DNA from: Phytoactinopolyspora halotolerans
Lineage (GTDB): Bacteria > Actinomycetota > Actinomycetes > Jiangellales > Jiangellaceae
NCBI RefSeq assembly: GCF_010550675.1
Contig: NZ_JAAGOA010000008.1
Coordinates: 1 to 64,000 of the forward strand
Reading direction: 5' to 3'
Length of the DNA: 64,000 nucleotides
Made by a program: the position numbers and the translations under genes. Below the pieces are notes generated by a model. The model did not search any database. It was not told the DNA's origin and saw nothing but the letters and a program-made list of their open reading frames with translations. This document shows positions 13,962 through 19,788 of the stretch, in pieces. Each line of letters begins with the position of its first letter. Positions within the stretch are counted from its first letter, which is position 1.

Positions 13962-14050
13962 ACGTCCTCCTCAGTCGGTTCAGCTGGGAGCCGACGTTTC
14001 CACCCGTGCGGACGACGAACAAGAGAGGTTTCCGGGTGGCGGGAGTCAGG

Positions 14051-14140
14051 GCCACGCCCTGCTCCCACGCGGTGCGTTACACGGCCCGGTCGGTGCACAA
14101 GGTCAGGTGGCCGGGTGGGATGGCCGCGCCCGTGGGTGAC
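14051..14140 (-). pseudogene. Truncated 3' end of an IclR regulator gene
   Basis: On the minus strand this reads AAIPPGHLTLCTDRAV, stop, RTAWEQGVA. The intact IclR gene at 15740-16588 ends STPPYDHLIRCTARAVQRTAWEQGVA. The relic has a stop in place of Gln, has lost the native stop by an added base, and nothing upstream of these ~30 codons survives. It lies in the same orientation as the intact copy about 1.7 kb away, with the ATPase gene between. Confidence 0.85.
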
Positions 14141-14196
14141 GTATTGTGGTCTTGACCATATAGGGCTGTGGCCTAATATGGTTACAACCACAATAC
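14141..14196 (+). promoter_or_regulatory. Palindromic promoter of the AAA ATPase gene
   Basis: GTATTGTGGT (14141-14150) is perfectly inverted at 14187-14196, and GACCATAT/ATATGGTT form an inner imperfect repeat. A sigma-70-like promoter sits between the outer arms: TTGACC at 14152-14157, 16 bases, TAATAT at 14174-14179, predicting a start within about 30 bases of the ATG. A related palindrome precedes a broken copy of the same gene at 19158-19199. Confidence 0.75.
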
Positions 14197-14215
14197 TCGA
14201 CCGGAATCCTTGACC

Positions 14216-15709
14216 ATGCACACCAGCGACACGCTCATCGATCGAGACAAGGAAATCGCCCGCCTTCACCGACTCCTCGCGAGGTCAGAACCCCAGCTCG
14301 TGCTGATGTATGGACGGCGCCGGGTCGGGAAGACCTACCTGTTGAATCGGGCATGGGATTCCGTTGGAGCCTCGACGTTCTACTTCACCGCGTCCGAGAC
14401 GACTGCGGCACAGAACCGCGCGGCTCTGCTCGACACATACGCCGCATGGTCGGGCGAGCAGGTCCATCCGGAGGATTACCCGACCTGGCGAAGCGTCTTC
14501 CGCCTCCTACTGGGCCATGTGTCCACGCAACCTCTTGTCATCACCATCGACGAGTTCCAATACCTCGGCGAGGACCATCGAGACCTGAACGCCGTGGCGT
14601 CCGAGCTCAACGCCGCCTGGGAAATGCGTCGTCCGCCTCGGCCCCTCCTTTTCATCCTTGCCGGCTCCGCCGTCAGAACACTCGAGAGCCTCAACGACGG
14701 TGGCTCGCCTCTCTATGGGCGCTTCGCCTGGCAGACACGCCTGCGCCCATTCGACTACTGGCACGCAGGCGAGCTCGCGTCGTTCGATGACGTCCGCGAC
14801 CGGGCACGCGCGTACGGAATCTTCGGAGGTACACCGCGTTACCTCGCGCCAGTCGACGCCACCAAGCACCTCGCTGAGAACGTCATCGATTTGGTGCTCG
14901 AGCCTACAGGTGAAGTGCGAGAGCTCGTTCAGACTGCCCTGCTGCAGGAGCAGGGTCTGCGCGACATCTCCAAGTACGTGGCCATCCTGCGGGCAATAGG
15001 CGGCGGACGCACCAACTTCAACGAGATCGCCCAGCGCGCCGGAGTCGACGCTGACTCGTCTCTTCGGGAAAAGATCGAACGACTCATCGAACTCGACTAC
15101 GTCCGGGCCGGCCGTCGCCTCGGCGCCAAACCCAAAGAGCCGTACCGCTATGACGTGTCAGATCCCGCAATGCGCTTTTACTACGACGCGATCGCTCCAA
15201 TCGAGAGCATGCTCGCCACCCAGAATCCCCGGGCGATCTGGGAACAGCGCGTAGCTCCAATGCTCGACGGCTATATGGGGCTTATCTTCGAAGGAATGGT
15301 CGAAGAGGCCTATTACCGCCTCGCTGATGTGCTTGGTCTGCCCCTTGTGCGCGAATGGGGACGCTGGGAAGGTGTCGACCGTCAACGCACGTCACTCGAG
15401 ATGGACATCGCGTGTCCTCTCCTCGACGATCGCGTTCTCACCGGCGCCATCAAGTGGAACACCAAACCTGTCGACGTGGACGTCCACTCCAAACACCTCG
15501 GCATGCTCGACCGCCTCGTAGACGCCGGCATCGGGTGGGCACACGACGCGAACCGACCAGACTCTCCACTGCTCTACGTTGCCGCCGGCGGGTTCACCGA
15601 CCGCTTCCGCCAAGCCGCGACCGCTTCGAGGGATGAGGTTTACCTATGGACCATCGACGATCTCTATCAGCCACACGAGAAAGAAGGAACGGCAACGGCT
15701 ACAGGCTGA
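14216..15709 (+). CDS. AAA-type ATPase with C-terminal DUF234/nuclease-like domain
   Basis: 497 aa. The N-terminal ATPase has Walker A MYGRRRVGKTYLLNRA at about residues 29-44 and Walker B ITIDEFQYL near 114-122, followed by an arginine-finger-region IFGGTPRYL. The middle winged-helix part includes ALLQEQGLRDISKYVAIL and FNEIAQRAGVD. The C-terminal half has FEGMVEEAYYR and E..IDIAC-like elements (SLEMDIACPL, AIKWNTK) resembling the restriction-nuclease-like DUF234 region of archaeal-type ATPases, a group of unknown role that is patchy and often mobile. The start is the ATG at 14216; a TTG two codons earlier is possible. Its codon use is less GC3-biased than its neighbours, and it sits between two IclR 3' ends, so acquisition by transfer is plausible. 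Confidence 0.8.
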   Translation: MHTSDTLIDRDKEIARLHRLLARSEPQLVLMYGRRRVGKTYLLNRAWDSVGASTFYFTASETTAAQNRAALLDTYAAWSGEQVHPEDYPTWRSVFRLLLGHVSTQPLVITIDEFQYLGEDHRDLNAVASELNAAWEMRRPPRPLLFILAGSAVRTLESLNDGGSPLYGRFAWQTRLRPFDYWHAGELASFDDVRDRARAYGIFGGTPRYLAPVDATKHLAENVIDLVLEPTGEVRELVQTALLQEQGLRDISKYVAILRAIGGGRTNFNEIAQRAGVDADSSLREKIERLIELDYVRAGRRLGAKPKEPYRYDVSDPAMRFYYDAIAPIESMLATQNPRAIWEQRVAPMLDGYMGLIFEGMVEEAYYRLADVLGLPLVREWGRWEGVDRQRTSLEMDIACPLLDDRVLTGAIKWNTKPVDVDVHSKHLGMLDRLVDAGIGWAHDANRPDSPLLYVAAGGFTDRFRQAATASRDEVYLWTIDDLYQPHEKEGTATATG

Positions 15710-17753: not shown

Positions 17754-19016
17754 CTACGGTTGTTGCGCTGGTCGTTGCGGGACTGGTCGTGTCGGCGGCG
17801 AGACCTGCGTGTCCGAGTCGGGGCTGGCTAACACGCGCTCGAACCCAGTGAACGCTTCGAACAGGCCGACCGCTTCGAACCTACGGTTACGACGTCCCAG
17901 TGAGACCTGACGCACAACACCTGAATCGGCAAGCCTGTTGACAGCGTCACTCGTCGCTTGGAAAGTCCGTCCAATGTGGATTGCCGCGGTGGTGATCGAG
18001 AAGACGGGTAATGACGGCAGCGCCGTGAGTAGTAAGTCCGTGGCCGAGTTCGCGCGTACGCGCCCAAGTCTCTCCCTCCACGACCTCTCCAACGAGACCA
18101 GATCGGTGACAAACTGCGAGGCGTCTCGGCACGCGCGCCCGGTCGCCGAGAGAAACAGTTCCACCCACGCCAGCTGACCCGCCATCGGCGAACCGTCGAT
18201 CCGGGTCTCGTCGAGTGCATCCACGTATCTATCGGCCTGCGTCGCAAGCACCAAGGAGATCGGCGGTACAACCCGCGTCGCAACCCCGCGTCGGCGTAGA
18301 ACCAACTGAATCAGTGCTCGCCCCGTACGCCCATTACCGTCCGCGAACGGGTGGATCGTCTCGAACTGAGAATGGGCGAGCGCGGCTTGCAGGAGCGCTG
18401 GATGTTCGTCTCCTGAGAGGTATGCAGCCAGGTCAGTGAGGAGTTCGGGAACGAACTCCGCGGGCGGCGGCACGAAGGCGGCCGAGCACGGGTTGGCTCC
18501 GCCGATCCAGTTCTGCTCACGGCGCACGATGCCAGCCCAAGCCTCTTCTCGCGTAGCCGCGAGCAAGGCCTTGTGGATGGCTGTGATGTCGTCGACGCTG
18601 ACCGGTCTAGCCGGGTCCGCCGCCAAGGTGAGTGCTTCATCGAGCGCCCGAACGTTGCCGAGGACGGCGCGCGCGGTGGTATCCGTGACTGGCAACCCTT
18701 CGCGTTCGGTCTCCTCGCTACGCGCGAGTCGGCGAACGTTCACCACCAGGCCATCGATATTCGACGAAGCAACCGCCTCCGCCCGCAGCAAGAATCGTGC
18801 AAGTGGTTCGAGGTTCGCCAGGCCCGGGTGCGCGTCGTTGAGATGACGCACCTGCTGCTCGATGTCGGCGAGGTCGGCCGCGACAGAAGCTCTCAGTTCC
18901 AGGTCAGCGCCTACGAGGGTGTCGGCGACATATGCTCGGAACCGGCAAGGTGTGCGCTCCGCGCGCGTCGCTCCCGCGGGATCGCCTGGCCAGACTCGTT
19001 CCTCGTAACGTCCCAA
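17754..19016 (-). CDS. Fic-family protein (AMP transferase) with C-terminal winged helix
   Basis: 420 aa. Fic proteins transfer AMP or related groups to target hydroxyls. The catalytic motif is HPFADGNGRTGRALIQ. An N-terminal inhibitory-helix motif is present as SSNIDG, with Asp where most class II proteins have Glu ([S/T]xxxE[G/N]). The flap region NWIGG...AAFVPPPAEFVPELLTDL precedes the core. The C-terminus (PVFSITTAAIHIG..ATSDAVNRL) is a winged helix typical of Fic proteins that bind DNA. I chose the TTG at 19016: it lies six bases after GGGAGG, and the open frame upstream runs through the operator palindrome. It is a single gene with no antitoxin neighbour. Confidence 0.88.
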   Translation of the reverse strand: MGRYEERVWPGDPAGATRAERTPCRFRAYVADTLVGADLELRASVAADLADIEQQVRHLNDAHPGLANLEPLARFLLRAEAVASSNIDGLVVNVRRLARSEETEREGLPVTDTTARAVLGNVRALDEALTLAADPARPVSVDDITAIHKALLAATREEAWAGIVRREQNWIGGANPCSAAFVPPPAEFVPELLTDLAAYLSGDEHPALLQAALAHSQFETIHPFADGNGRTGRALIQLVLRRRGVATRVVPPISLVLATQADRYVDALDETRIDGSPMAGQLAWVELFLSATGRACRDASQFVTDLVSLERSWRERLGRVRANSATDLLLTALPSLPVFSITTAAIHIGRTFQATSDAVNRLADSGVVRQVSLGRRNRRFEAVGLFEAFTGFERVLASPDSDTQVSPPTRPVPQRPAQQP

Positions 19017-19028
19017 CAACGACCTCCC

Positions 19029-19059
19029 ATATTCAAGGTTACGGCATAACCTTGAATAT
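19029..19059. promoter_or_regulatory. Perfect operator palindrome of the Fic gene
   Basis: ATATTCAAGGTTA (19029-19041) is perfectly inverted at 19047-19059 with a 5-base spacer. It ends 13 bases before the TTG start, overlapping where the promoter must be. With a winged helix in the Fic protein itself, autorepression is likely. Confidence 0.8.
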
Positions 19060-19157
19060 GACCCAGTCATGTTCAACGTTGAGCGGGCGACGGCTCCAAC
19101 CGAGCCGTCGACAGGCGCCGAGCCGCGGATCATCGTCTTGTGGTCATGAGTTGAGTC

Positions 19158-19287
19158 GAGTATTGGTCGTGGCCGCATGCAGTCACGACCGCAATACTCT
19201 GCGTTGGAACCTGAGACGACAATCGCCGACGGCACACTGATCGATCAAGAGAAATTCGTATGGCGACCTCTGCGGCGCACTGCGCCG
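19158..19287 (+). pseudogene. Relic of a second AAA-ATPase gene start with its promoter palindrome
   Basis: GAGTATTGGTCGTG (19158-19171) is inverted at 19184-19199 with a two-base bulge. The right arm and following bases, CAATACTC..GGAA..CCT, match those before the intact ATPase (14191-14210). About 30 bases on the DNA reads DGTLIDQEKFVWRPLRR; the intact protein begins DTLIDRDKEIARLHRLL. No start codon or Walker A follows and the NUDIX 3' end cuts it off at 19288. It is decayed but same family and same promoter layout. Confidence 0.7.
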
Positions 19288-19788
19288 CTATCCATCGTGC
19301 TGGACGTCGAGTATCCGTGTCGCGTCCATGTAGAAGGTATGGCTTTCATTTCGTGCTCGCAACGCAGCGGCAAGTCTTGATCGGCCTCCGTCCGTGTGCT
19401 GTCGTATCGCCGTTGGGGGATCGAGCCACAAGGCGTCGGCGATCTCTTCCTCTTGCAGCCTGAGAACAACACCGCTGGCGACGCGCTCGGTATCGAAGAC
19501 AAACATCAAGCTCGCCGGAGTGCTGTCCGTCGCCGGCTTGTGCTGGACCACAAGAAGACGAGTCACGGGCAATACGAGTCCTGTCTCTTCGAGTACCTCG
19601 CGCTCGGCGGCGGCAGCGGGTGATTCACCCTCTTCGACCACCCCACCTGGAAGGACGAGACCTTCTCGATCGACGGTTCTGACCAGCAGCGAGCGCCCAT
19701 TCTCGTCGGTGATCAACATCCCCGCGGCGGCGGATTGGGCGGGCAGGTCTGCGAAGAAGGGCCGGCGCCGATCGTCACTCGCCGTCAT
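19288..19788 (-). CDS. NUDIX hydrolase
   Basis: 166 aa. The NUDIX box GGVVEEGESPAAAAEREVLEETGL lies near residues 48-71 (GX5EX7REUXEEXGU satisfied), after strands GMLITDENGRSLLVRTVD. The family hydrolyses nucleoside-diphosphate-linked compounds; the substrate is not predictable. Its ATG overlaps the stop of the upstream NUDIX gene (ATGA), so the two form an operon. The C-terminus abuts the ATPase relic. Confidence 0.9.
   Translation of the reverse strand: MTASDDRRRPFFADLPAQSAAAGMLITDENGRSLLVRTVDREGLVLPGGVVEEGESPAAAAEREVLEETGLVLPVTRLLVVQHKPATDSTPASLMFVFDTERVASGVVLRLQEEEIADALWLDPPTAIRQHTDGGRSRLAAALRARNESHTFYMDATRILDVQHDG

Follow-up and report, generated by a model that had tools for sequence, protein, structure and literature searches.

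The window, i.e., the whole stretch of 64,000 nucleotides considered here (Phytoactinopolyspora halotolerans, contig NZ_JAAGOA010000008.1), contains a gene for an ATPase_2-DUF234 protein and a gene for a Fic protein, each with an inverted repeat directly before it, as well as a second copy of the first repeat. The features are as follows.

14141..14196, no strand: inverted repeat with 26-nt arms, 81% complementary; proposed private operator of the ATPase gene
14152..14179, + strand: sigma-70-like promoter TTGACC-16-TAATAT within the ATPase-gene palindrome, from a promoter-site scan
14216..15709, + strand: ATPase_2 / winged helix / DUF234 protein, 497 aa, PDC-S27-like
17754..19016, - strand: Fic protein gene, SoFic-like, with a TTG start assigned by orthologue comparison
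19028..19060, no strand: perfect inverted repeat with 14-nt arms and a 5-nt loop; proposed operator of the Fic gene
19158..19199, no strand: second, shorter copy of the ATPase-gene palindrome, with no promoter; proposed orphan operator
19200..19290, + strand: possible, weakly indicated decayed 5' end of a second ATPase gene (alignment for, profile against)

The arms of the ATPase-gene palindrome lie at 14141-14166 and 14171-14196, separated by a loop of 4 nt, and 19 nt separate the end of the palindrome from the ATG at 14216. When the upstream region was dinucleotide-shuffled 60 times, its score was never reached, and the enclosed TTGACC-16-TAATAT is the single promoter-like site across 14050-14260 (shuffle mean 0.1). 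These values bear out the initial annotation, which had placed the ATPase promoter inside a palindrome at 14141-14215. Searching the entire 7.3-Mb genome for the pattern GTATTGN{20,45}ACCNCAATAC yielded two sites only, i.e., this palindrome and the copy at 19160-19197; the reversed control pattern yielded 0 sites in the whole genome.

The encoded protein matches ATPase_2 and DUF234 above the Pfam cut-offs, and its top PADLOC profile is PDC-S27 (E 2.8e-35, residues 6-398), which is matched by all 44 aligned ATPase_2-type relatives. In the AlphaFold2 model (mean pLDDT 92.2), an ATPase domain is followed by a winged helix and a C-terminal domain. The predicted winged helix spans residues 251-314 (helices 251-262, 268-275 and 281-292; strands 296-299 and 311-314). 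MarR_2 Pfam matches are present in 12 of the 44 relatives, and IclR-type matches in 8. In STAND-like proteins, a winged helix can be structural. The C-terminal elements are a helix at 338-369, strands at 384-413, a helix at 421-436 and a strand at 452-456, an order that, judged by eye in the model, appears to fit PD-(D/E)XK; a Mrr_cat Pfam match was obtained for 1 of the 44 relatives. At the position of the (D/E)XK acid, E is the commonest residue (12 of 22 aligned rows), ahead of S (7), A (2) and C (1). Given the window ATPase has A there, nuclease activity of this copy is doubtful. The VIA-align comparison spans residues 1-327 and barely reaches the part beyond ~331. Its top folds are 2qen (PABY2304; Z 19.6, rmsd 3.5, 303 residues) and 2fna (SSO1545; Z 19.0, rmsd 3.4, 296 residues), followed by plant NLR, Cdc6/Orc1, ORC and CED-4 chains. 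Thus, the closest solved folds are two archaeal proteins, with the C-terminal domain (about 338-456) barely covered. A role in phage defence may be suggested on the grounds of family membership.

The Fic protein matches the Fic and Fic_N domains (4.4e-20 and 1.3e-08) and the SoFic profile (4.8e-70). Its palindrome is kept in two orthologues, from genomes G017 and G019 (82% and 80% identical), where blastn found no similarity in the upstream DNA. About 21 kb of genome G019 (C37, 101782-123209) contain the genes of a DUF4143 ATPase and a DUF234-type ATPase together with two Fic genes. Sites of the Fic operator in the window's genome are the one at 19031-19057 and one at C18:102271, with one mismatch. 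The latter (L193, about 1501-1545) is a Fic-type operator with a ribosome-binding site and an ATG; the sequence following it, GGGAGGTGACTGATGGG, closely resembles the start region of the Fic orthologues. The Fic palindromes abut the ribosome-binding site, which would suit a function as an RNA hairpin in the transcript leader. We consider such a function very improbable for the ATPase palindrome: with the promoter inside it, the left arm should not be transcribed, and the direct repeats of the DUF4143 ATPases described below form no such hairpin.

The second copy of the ATPase palindrome repeats GTATTG...CAATAC at 19160-19197, in 38 bp as against 56 in the first, i.e., 18 bp less. The two are alike mostly in the outer arms and the bases that follow them, and the scan found no promoter-like site in the second. 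The initial annotation had described it as preceding a broken copy of the same gene. The palindrome does recur, yet it is no full-length match, being shorter and devoid of the promoter, and the broken gene is weakly supported. Aligned with the start of the ATPase gene, the second palindrome and its downstream DNA outscored all 500 shuffles and all 1442 other window pieces; when the palindrome was left out, 4 of 500 shuffles and 33 of 1442 pieces scored at least as high as the downstream DNA. A profile of 44 ATPases, including that of the window, found nothing significant in 19101-19500 (best E 0.36), and a tblastn search of the window with the ATPase, in which the gene at 14216-15709 was masked, yielded no match under E 0.19; a second ATPase gene recognizable at protein level in 19101-19500 was accordingly rejected. 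Taken together, the weak alignment after the palindrome and the null profile search suggest at most a short decayed 5' end after 19199. The most likely identity of 19158-19199 is an orphan operator, the remnant of a lost second copy. The same is proposed for C18:102271, given no Fic relative was found there: at E<=1e-8, the search of this genome for Fic relatives retrieved the window's gene only.

Two copies of a palindrome 5 kb apart might also mark the ends of a mobile element, a recombination site or an invertible promoter. An element boundary, which the initial annotation had offered as an option, would show an identical repeat at both ends, whereas these copies are unlike in length and inner sequence, and no third copy of the ATPase palindrome exists in the genome. 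Moreover, relatives carry different repeats at the equivalent position before the start codon, and the repeat of the Fic gene is kept amid unrelated flanks. Hence, this explanation is extremely unlikely, and the evidence lends no support to an element boundary.

No orthologue of the window ATPase was found in a collection of genome contigs, the gene matched only itself at E<=1e-60 across 22 genomes of its family, and a search of 396 genomes returned one relative at E<=1e-45. Given this, conservation was examined on relatives, with paralogue L004 as a stand-in. The set from the window's family of genomes comprises 30 of 34 places (two without a locus and two fragments were dropped), and that from the phylum comprises 17 loci outside the window genome, of 22. 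The L004 orthologue set has 33 loci, of which 31 entered the inverted-repeat test and 29 the combined test, with partial matches and contig ends left out. Fic genes are represented by 21 of 40 places, the others having no locus or a match starting past residue 56. For the AAA_14-DUF4143 genes, 24 of 46 places were used (16 without a locus, five without an in-frame Walker A and one without a start were dropped), and the 30 NUDIX places with an assigned locus, out of a much longer list, served for comparison. Plasmid records were chosen for taxonomic spread, 12 of 152 for the ATPase and 10 of 371 for DUF4143. In the repeat test, 200 shuffles were made per region, and a region passed when the better of the inverted- and direct-repeat tests reached p<=0.005, with ~2% expected by chance.

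More than half of the tested ATPase_2-DUF234 genes have an inverted repeat and/or a 15-16-bp direct-repeat array just 5' of the start. The threshold was passed by 17/30 ATPases in the window's family of genomes, 10/17 across the phylum, 9/12 on plasmids (the 12 examined being from eight haloarchaea, two Rhodothermus, a Rhizobium and a Vescimonas) and 22/29 orthologues of L004, as against 4/30 NUDIX genes, a value itself above the ~2% expected. The initial annotation had named the absence of a palindrome upstream of close homologues as its refuting outcome; on these values for relatives, the idea was not refuted. Fic genes and DUF4143 genes passed in 14/21 and 16/24 cases. In the two control stretches taken per locus, 0-2 passed per set, except 5/24 in one DUF4143 control. 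Upstream regions with repeats also occur among the NUDIX genes, e.g. L087, L093 and L113. Among the chromosomal ATPase relatives, 20 of 47 fall below the threshold, and several of these (e.g. L029, L030 and L022) show imperfect or long-looped repeats by eye. An unusually long case is L024, where a perfect inverted repeat with 29-nt arms and a 12-nt loop lies 116 to 46 bases 5' of the estimated ATPase start; it may be either an operator or a terminator.

The sequences of these repeats are specific to each gene. At E<=1e-8, nine loci of the window genome match the ATPase, itself included, and their upstream regions mostly contain palindromes or repeats of differing sequence: among the 36 pairs of upstream regions, 2 are alike at p<=0.02, where 0.7 are expected. 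One palindrome common to the whole ATPase family was rejected on these grounds. The initial suggestion of a dedicated operator is supported, in that repeats do precede the starts of many relatives, but the sequence of the palindrome is no family motif.

The differing operators of the nine paralogues make a single shared regulator unlikely, which bears on the alternative in which other cellular regulators, and not the gene's own product, bind each operator. Furthermore, no regulator gene recurs in the 12 plasmid neighbourhoods, where assorted HTH genes adjoin three, and the geometry of the repeats tracks the protein family. On the other side, binding by the own product is a step that we infer, and the correlation did not tie the operator to the winged helix: operator similarity is tracked by ATPase-domain identity at least as well as by winged-helix identity. 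On balance, we hold regulation by other proteins to be distinctly improbable.

The relation of geometry to protein family emerges from the direct-repeat search, in which lags of 8-40 were considered. Of 59 DUF234-type ATPases, 25 have a significant direct repeat, and for 21 of these a lag of 15 or 16 bp scores best; of 24 AAA_14-DUF4143 genes, 17 have one, all with a best lag of 22 or 23 bp. No common lag was found among the few significant direct repeats of Fic genes (2/21), NUDIX genes (2/30) and control stretches (2/47 and 1/24). The DUF4143 units occur in three or four tandem copies of gene-specific sequence (e.g. L114, L129, L117, L130, L131 and L137); four of the 24 loci (L115, L116, L127 and L134) have an agreement <0.65 and no clear array. 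Given the best phase was picked without a shuffled control, the agreement values are biased upward. Inverted repeats precede 1/24 DUF4143 genes, compared with 4/24 and 1/24 in the controls. All 24 DUF4143 proteins match the PDC-S01 profile, and the AlphaFold2 model made for one (mean pLDDT 92.0) has a predicted domain of winged-helix type at 218-287, composed of three helices and two strands, after which the elements apparently follow a PD-(D/E)XK-like order. Among DUF4143 genes from plasmids of other groups, a significant direct repeat was found for 1/10, with a best lag of 22-23 in 4/10, and 2/10 have a significant inverted repeat instead (the start of L199 is an estimate). The 22-23-bp array is hence not claimed for those groups; good support for it is confined to the window's family of genomes.

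Repeats with fixed periods call to mind iterons or ORB sites, which are nucleation sites for initiators. The repeats could thus be mainly sites at which an ATPase-nuclease is loaded onto or recognizes DNA and nucleates an oligomer, with transcription control secondary. The fixed periods of 15-16 and 22-23 bp and the three or four units would suit a head-to-tail oligomer, the fold of the window ATPase resembles Cdc6/Orc1, and Cdc6/Orc1 genes often adjoin their own DNA sites. Against this, the arrays lie at the promoter just 5' of the start codon, that of the window contains the promoter, and many unlinked copies per genome (nine here at E<=1e-8) are ill-suited to a replication origin. We therefore regard this explanation as unlikely and retain autoregulation at the promoter as the preferred reading.

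Orthologues of L004 are 53-69% identical and come from Streptomyces, Nocardia, Microbispora and others. An inverted repeat at p<=0.01 is present in 18 of 31, with varied sequences. To follow how the two arms change, 22 operators were placed (18 of the 33 L004-orthologue loci plus L004, L029, L034 and L026), of which three were dropped and four re-placed with the register taken from the TATAAT-like centre; the remaining loci have other operators or registers (e.g. L162, L164 and L166-L168) or uncertain starts. With the 19 operators in one register, 78% of the cells are paired, compared with 28-41% when partners are slid; as best pairing determined the register for 15 of these operators, the placement is biased towards structure. 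Changes on both sides occur in 13 of 17 pairs (shuffled mean 10.1, reached by 7/500), and the covariation score is 0.390, compared with 0.178 in shuffles (0/500), in a kind of test that relatedness can inflate. Left arms pair better with their own right arm (12.5/17 positions) than with those of other genes (9.5/17; 0/20000 permutations).

In L004, L170 and L173, pairing is perfect over 17 positions of different sequence. The Streptomyces loci L159, L161, L174 and L177 have only 7-9/17 paired, around an intact TATAAT or TACAAT. The centre of the operator (five bases and the preceding T) reads TATAAT in 5/19, and TATGAT, TATCAT, TACAAT or TATAAA in four more. These TATAAT-like centres suggest the operator centre is often the -10 element. 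The L004 operator has 1 site in its own genome at <=3 mismatches.

Given the repeats are paralogue-specific, covarying and promoter-overlapping, have a geometry characteristic of the family and precede genes of winged-helix proteins, autoregulation by the gene's own product is the best explanation. We assign a probability of about 0.7 to the palindrome being a private autoregulatory operator bound by the winged helix of its own ATPase. The ATPase, as a dimer or a larger oligomer, would bind its own palindrome via its own winged helix, cover the promoter between the -35 region and about +10, and repress its own transcription; binding, repression and the binder's identity are steps we infer. Each member of the family would keep its own protein-operator pair, in which the sequence drifts and the arms or repeat units change together. 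The same design may apply to the neighbouring Fic gene, with an inverted repeat, and to the AAA_14-DUF4143 ATPases, with three or four direct repeats of 22-23-bp period.

It is already known that an enzyme can control its own gene through an HTH that it carries itself. The Fic-HTH protein CccR of Yersinia pseudotuberculosis represses its own promoter, in which it protects AGATAATCAT-N26-ATGATAATCT in footprints (PMC9755527). The promoter of the window ATPase gene likewise contains an inverted repeat, and the gene product has a DNA-binding-type domain in the predicted winged helix at 251-314. CccR is broadly similar in kind to the window's Fic gene; it is no ATPase, and its repeat has 10-bp arms and a 26-bp spacer (PMC9755527). 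AbiE is reported to be a defence-related toxin-antitoxin pair repressed via inverted repeats in the promoter (PMC7319586); there, regulator and toxin are separate proteins, whereas a single protein is proposed here. The novelty lies in how widespread the design is and in two traits of two large ATPase families, namely repeat sequences specific to each gene and a geometry specific to each family.

PDC-S01 and PDC-S27 are presented as fusions of an ATPase domain with a PD-(D/E)XK member that were identified through guilt-by-embedding; most candidates of this sort still await validation (PMC12988326). The archaeal part of the dataset comprises 9986 PDC-S01 and 3503 PDC-S27 systems, and the bacterial part 29494 and 4562, respectively (PMC12988326). 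The window ATPase and its relatives, which match PDC-S27, may share with these PADLOC candidate defence ATPases the combination of an ATPase with a PD-(D/E)XK-like domain; the passages on these systems considered here mention no operator (PMC12988326), and the window ATPase differs in the A at the (D/E)XK acid. Among the matches listed, no description of operators of DUF234 or DUF4143 ATPases was found in the open-licence literature.

A bolder reading, which we put forward tentatively and consider fairly unlikely, is that the private arrays are addresses at which single-protein immune ATPase-nucleases assemble, silent or sensing. Loss of the operator-bound state during infection would then derepress the gene and release the effector. 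The cell would, on the same tentative reading, carry numerous modules that regulate themselves and are blind to one another: ATPase_2-DUF234 with 15-16-bp arrays, AAA_14-DUF4143 with 22-23-bp arrays, and Fic with inverted repeats.

PDC-S01 and PDC-S27 ATPases are very common, and a gene-specific operator before many of the copies offers a direct handle on them: the expected DNA target of each ATPase would be readable from its own gene. The results further suggest a way in which a potentially harmful one-gene effector may be held at a low level, and would provide many independent pairs for studying the coevolution of regulators and operators.
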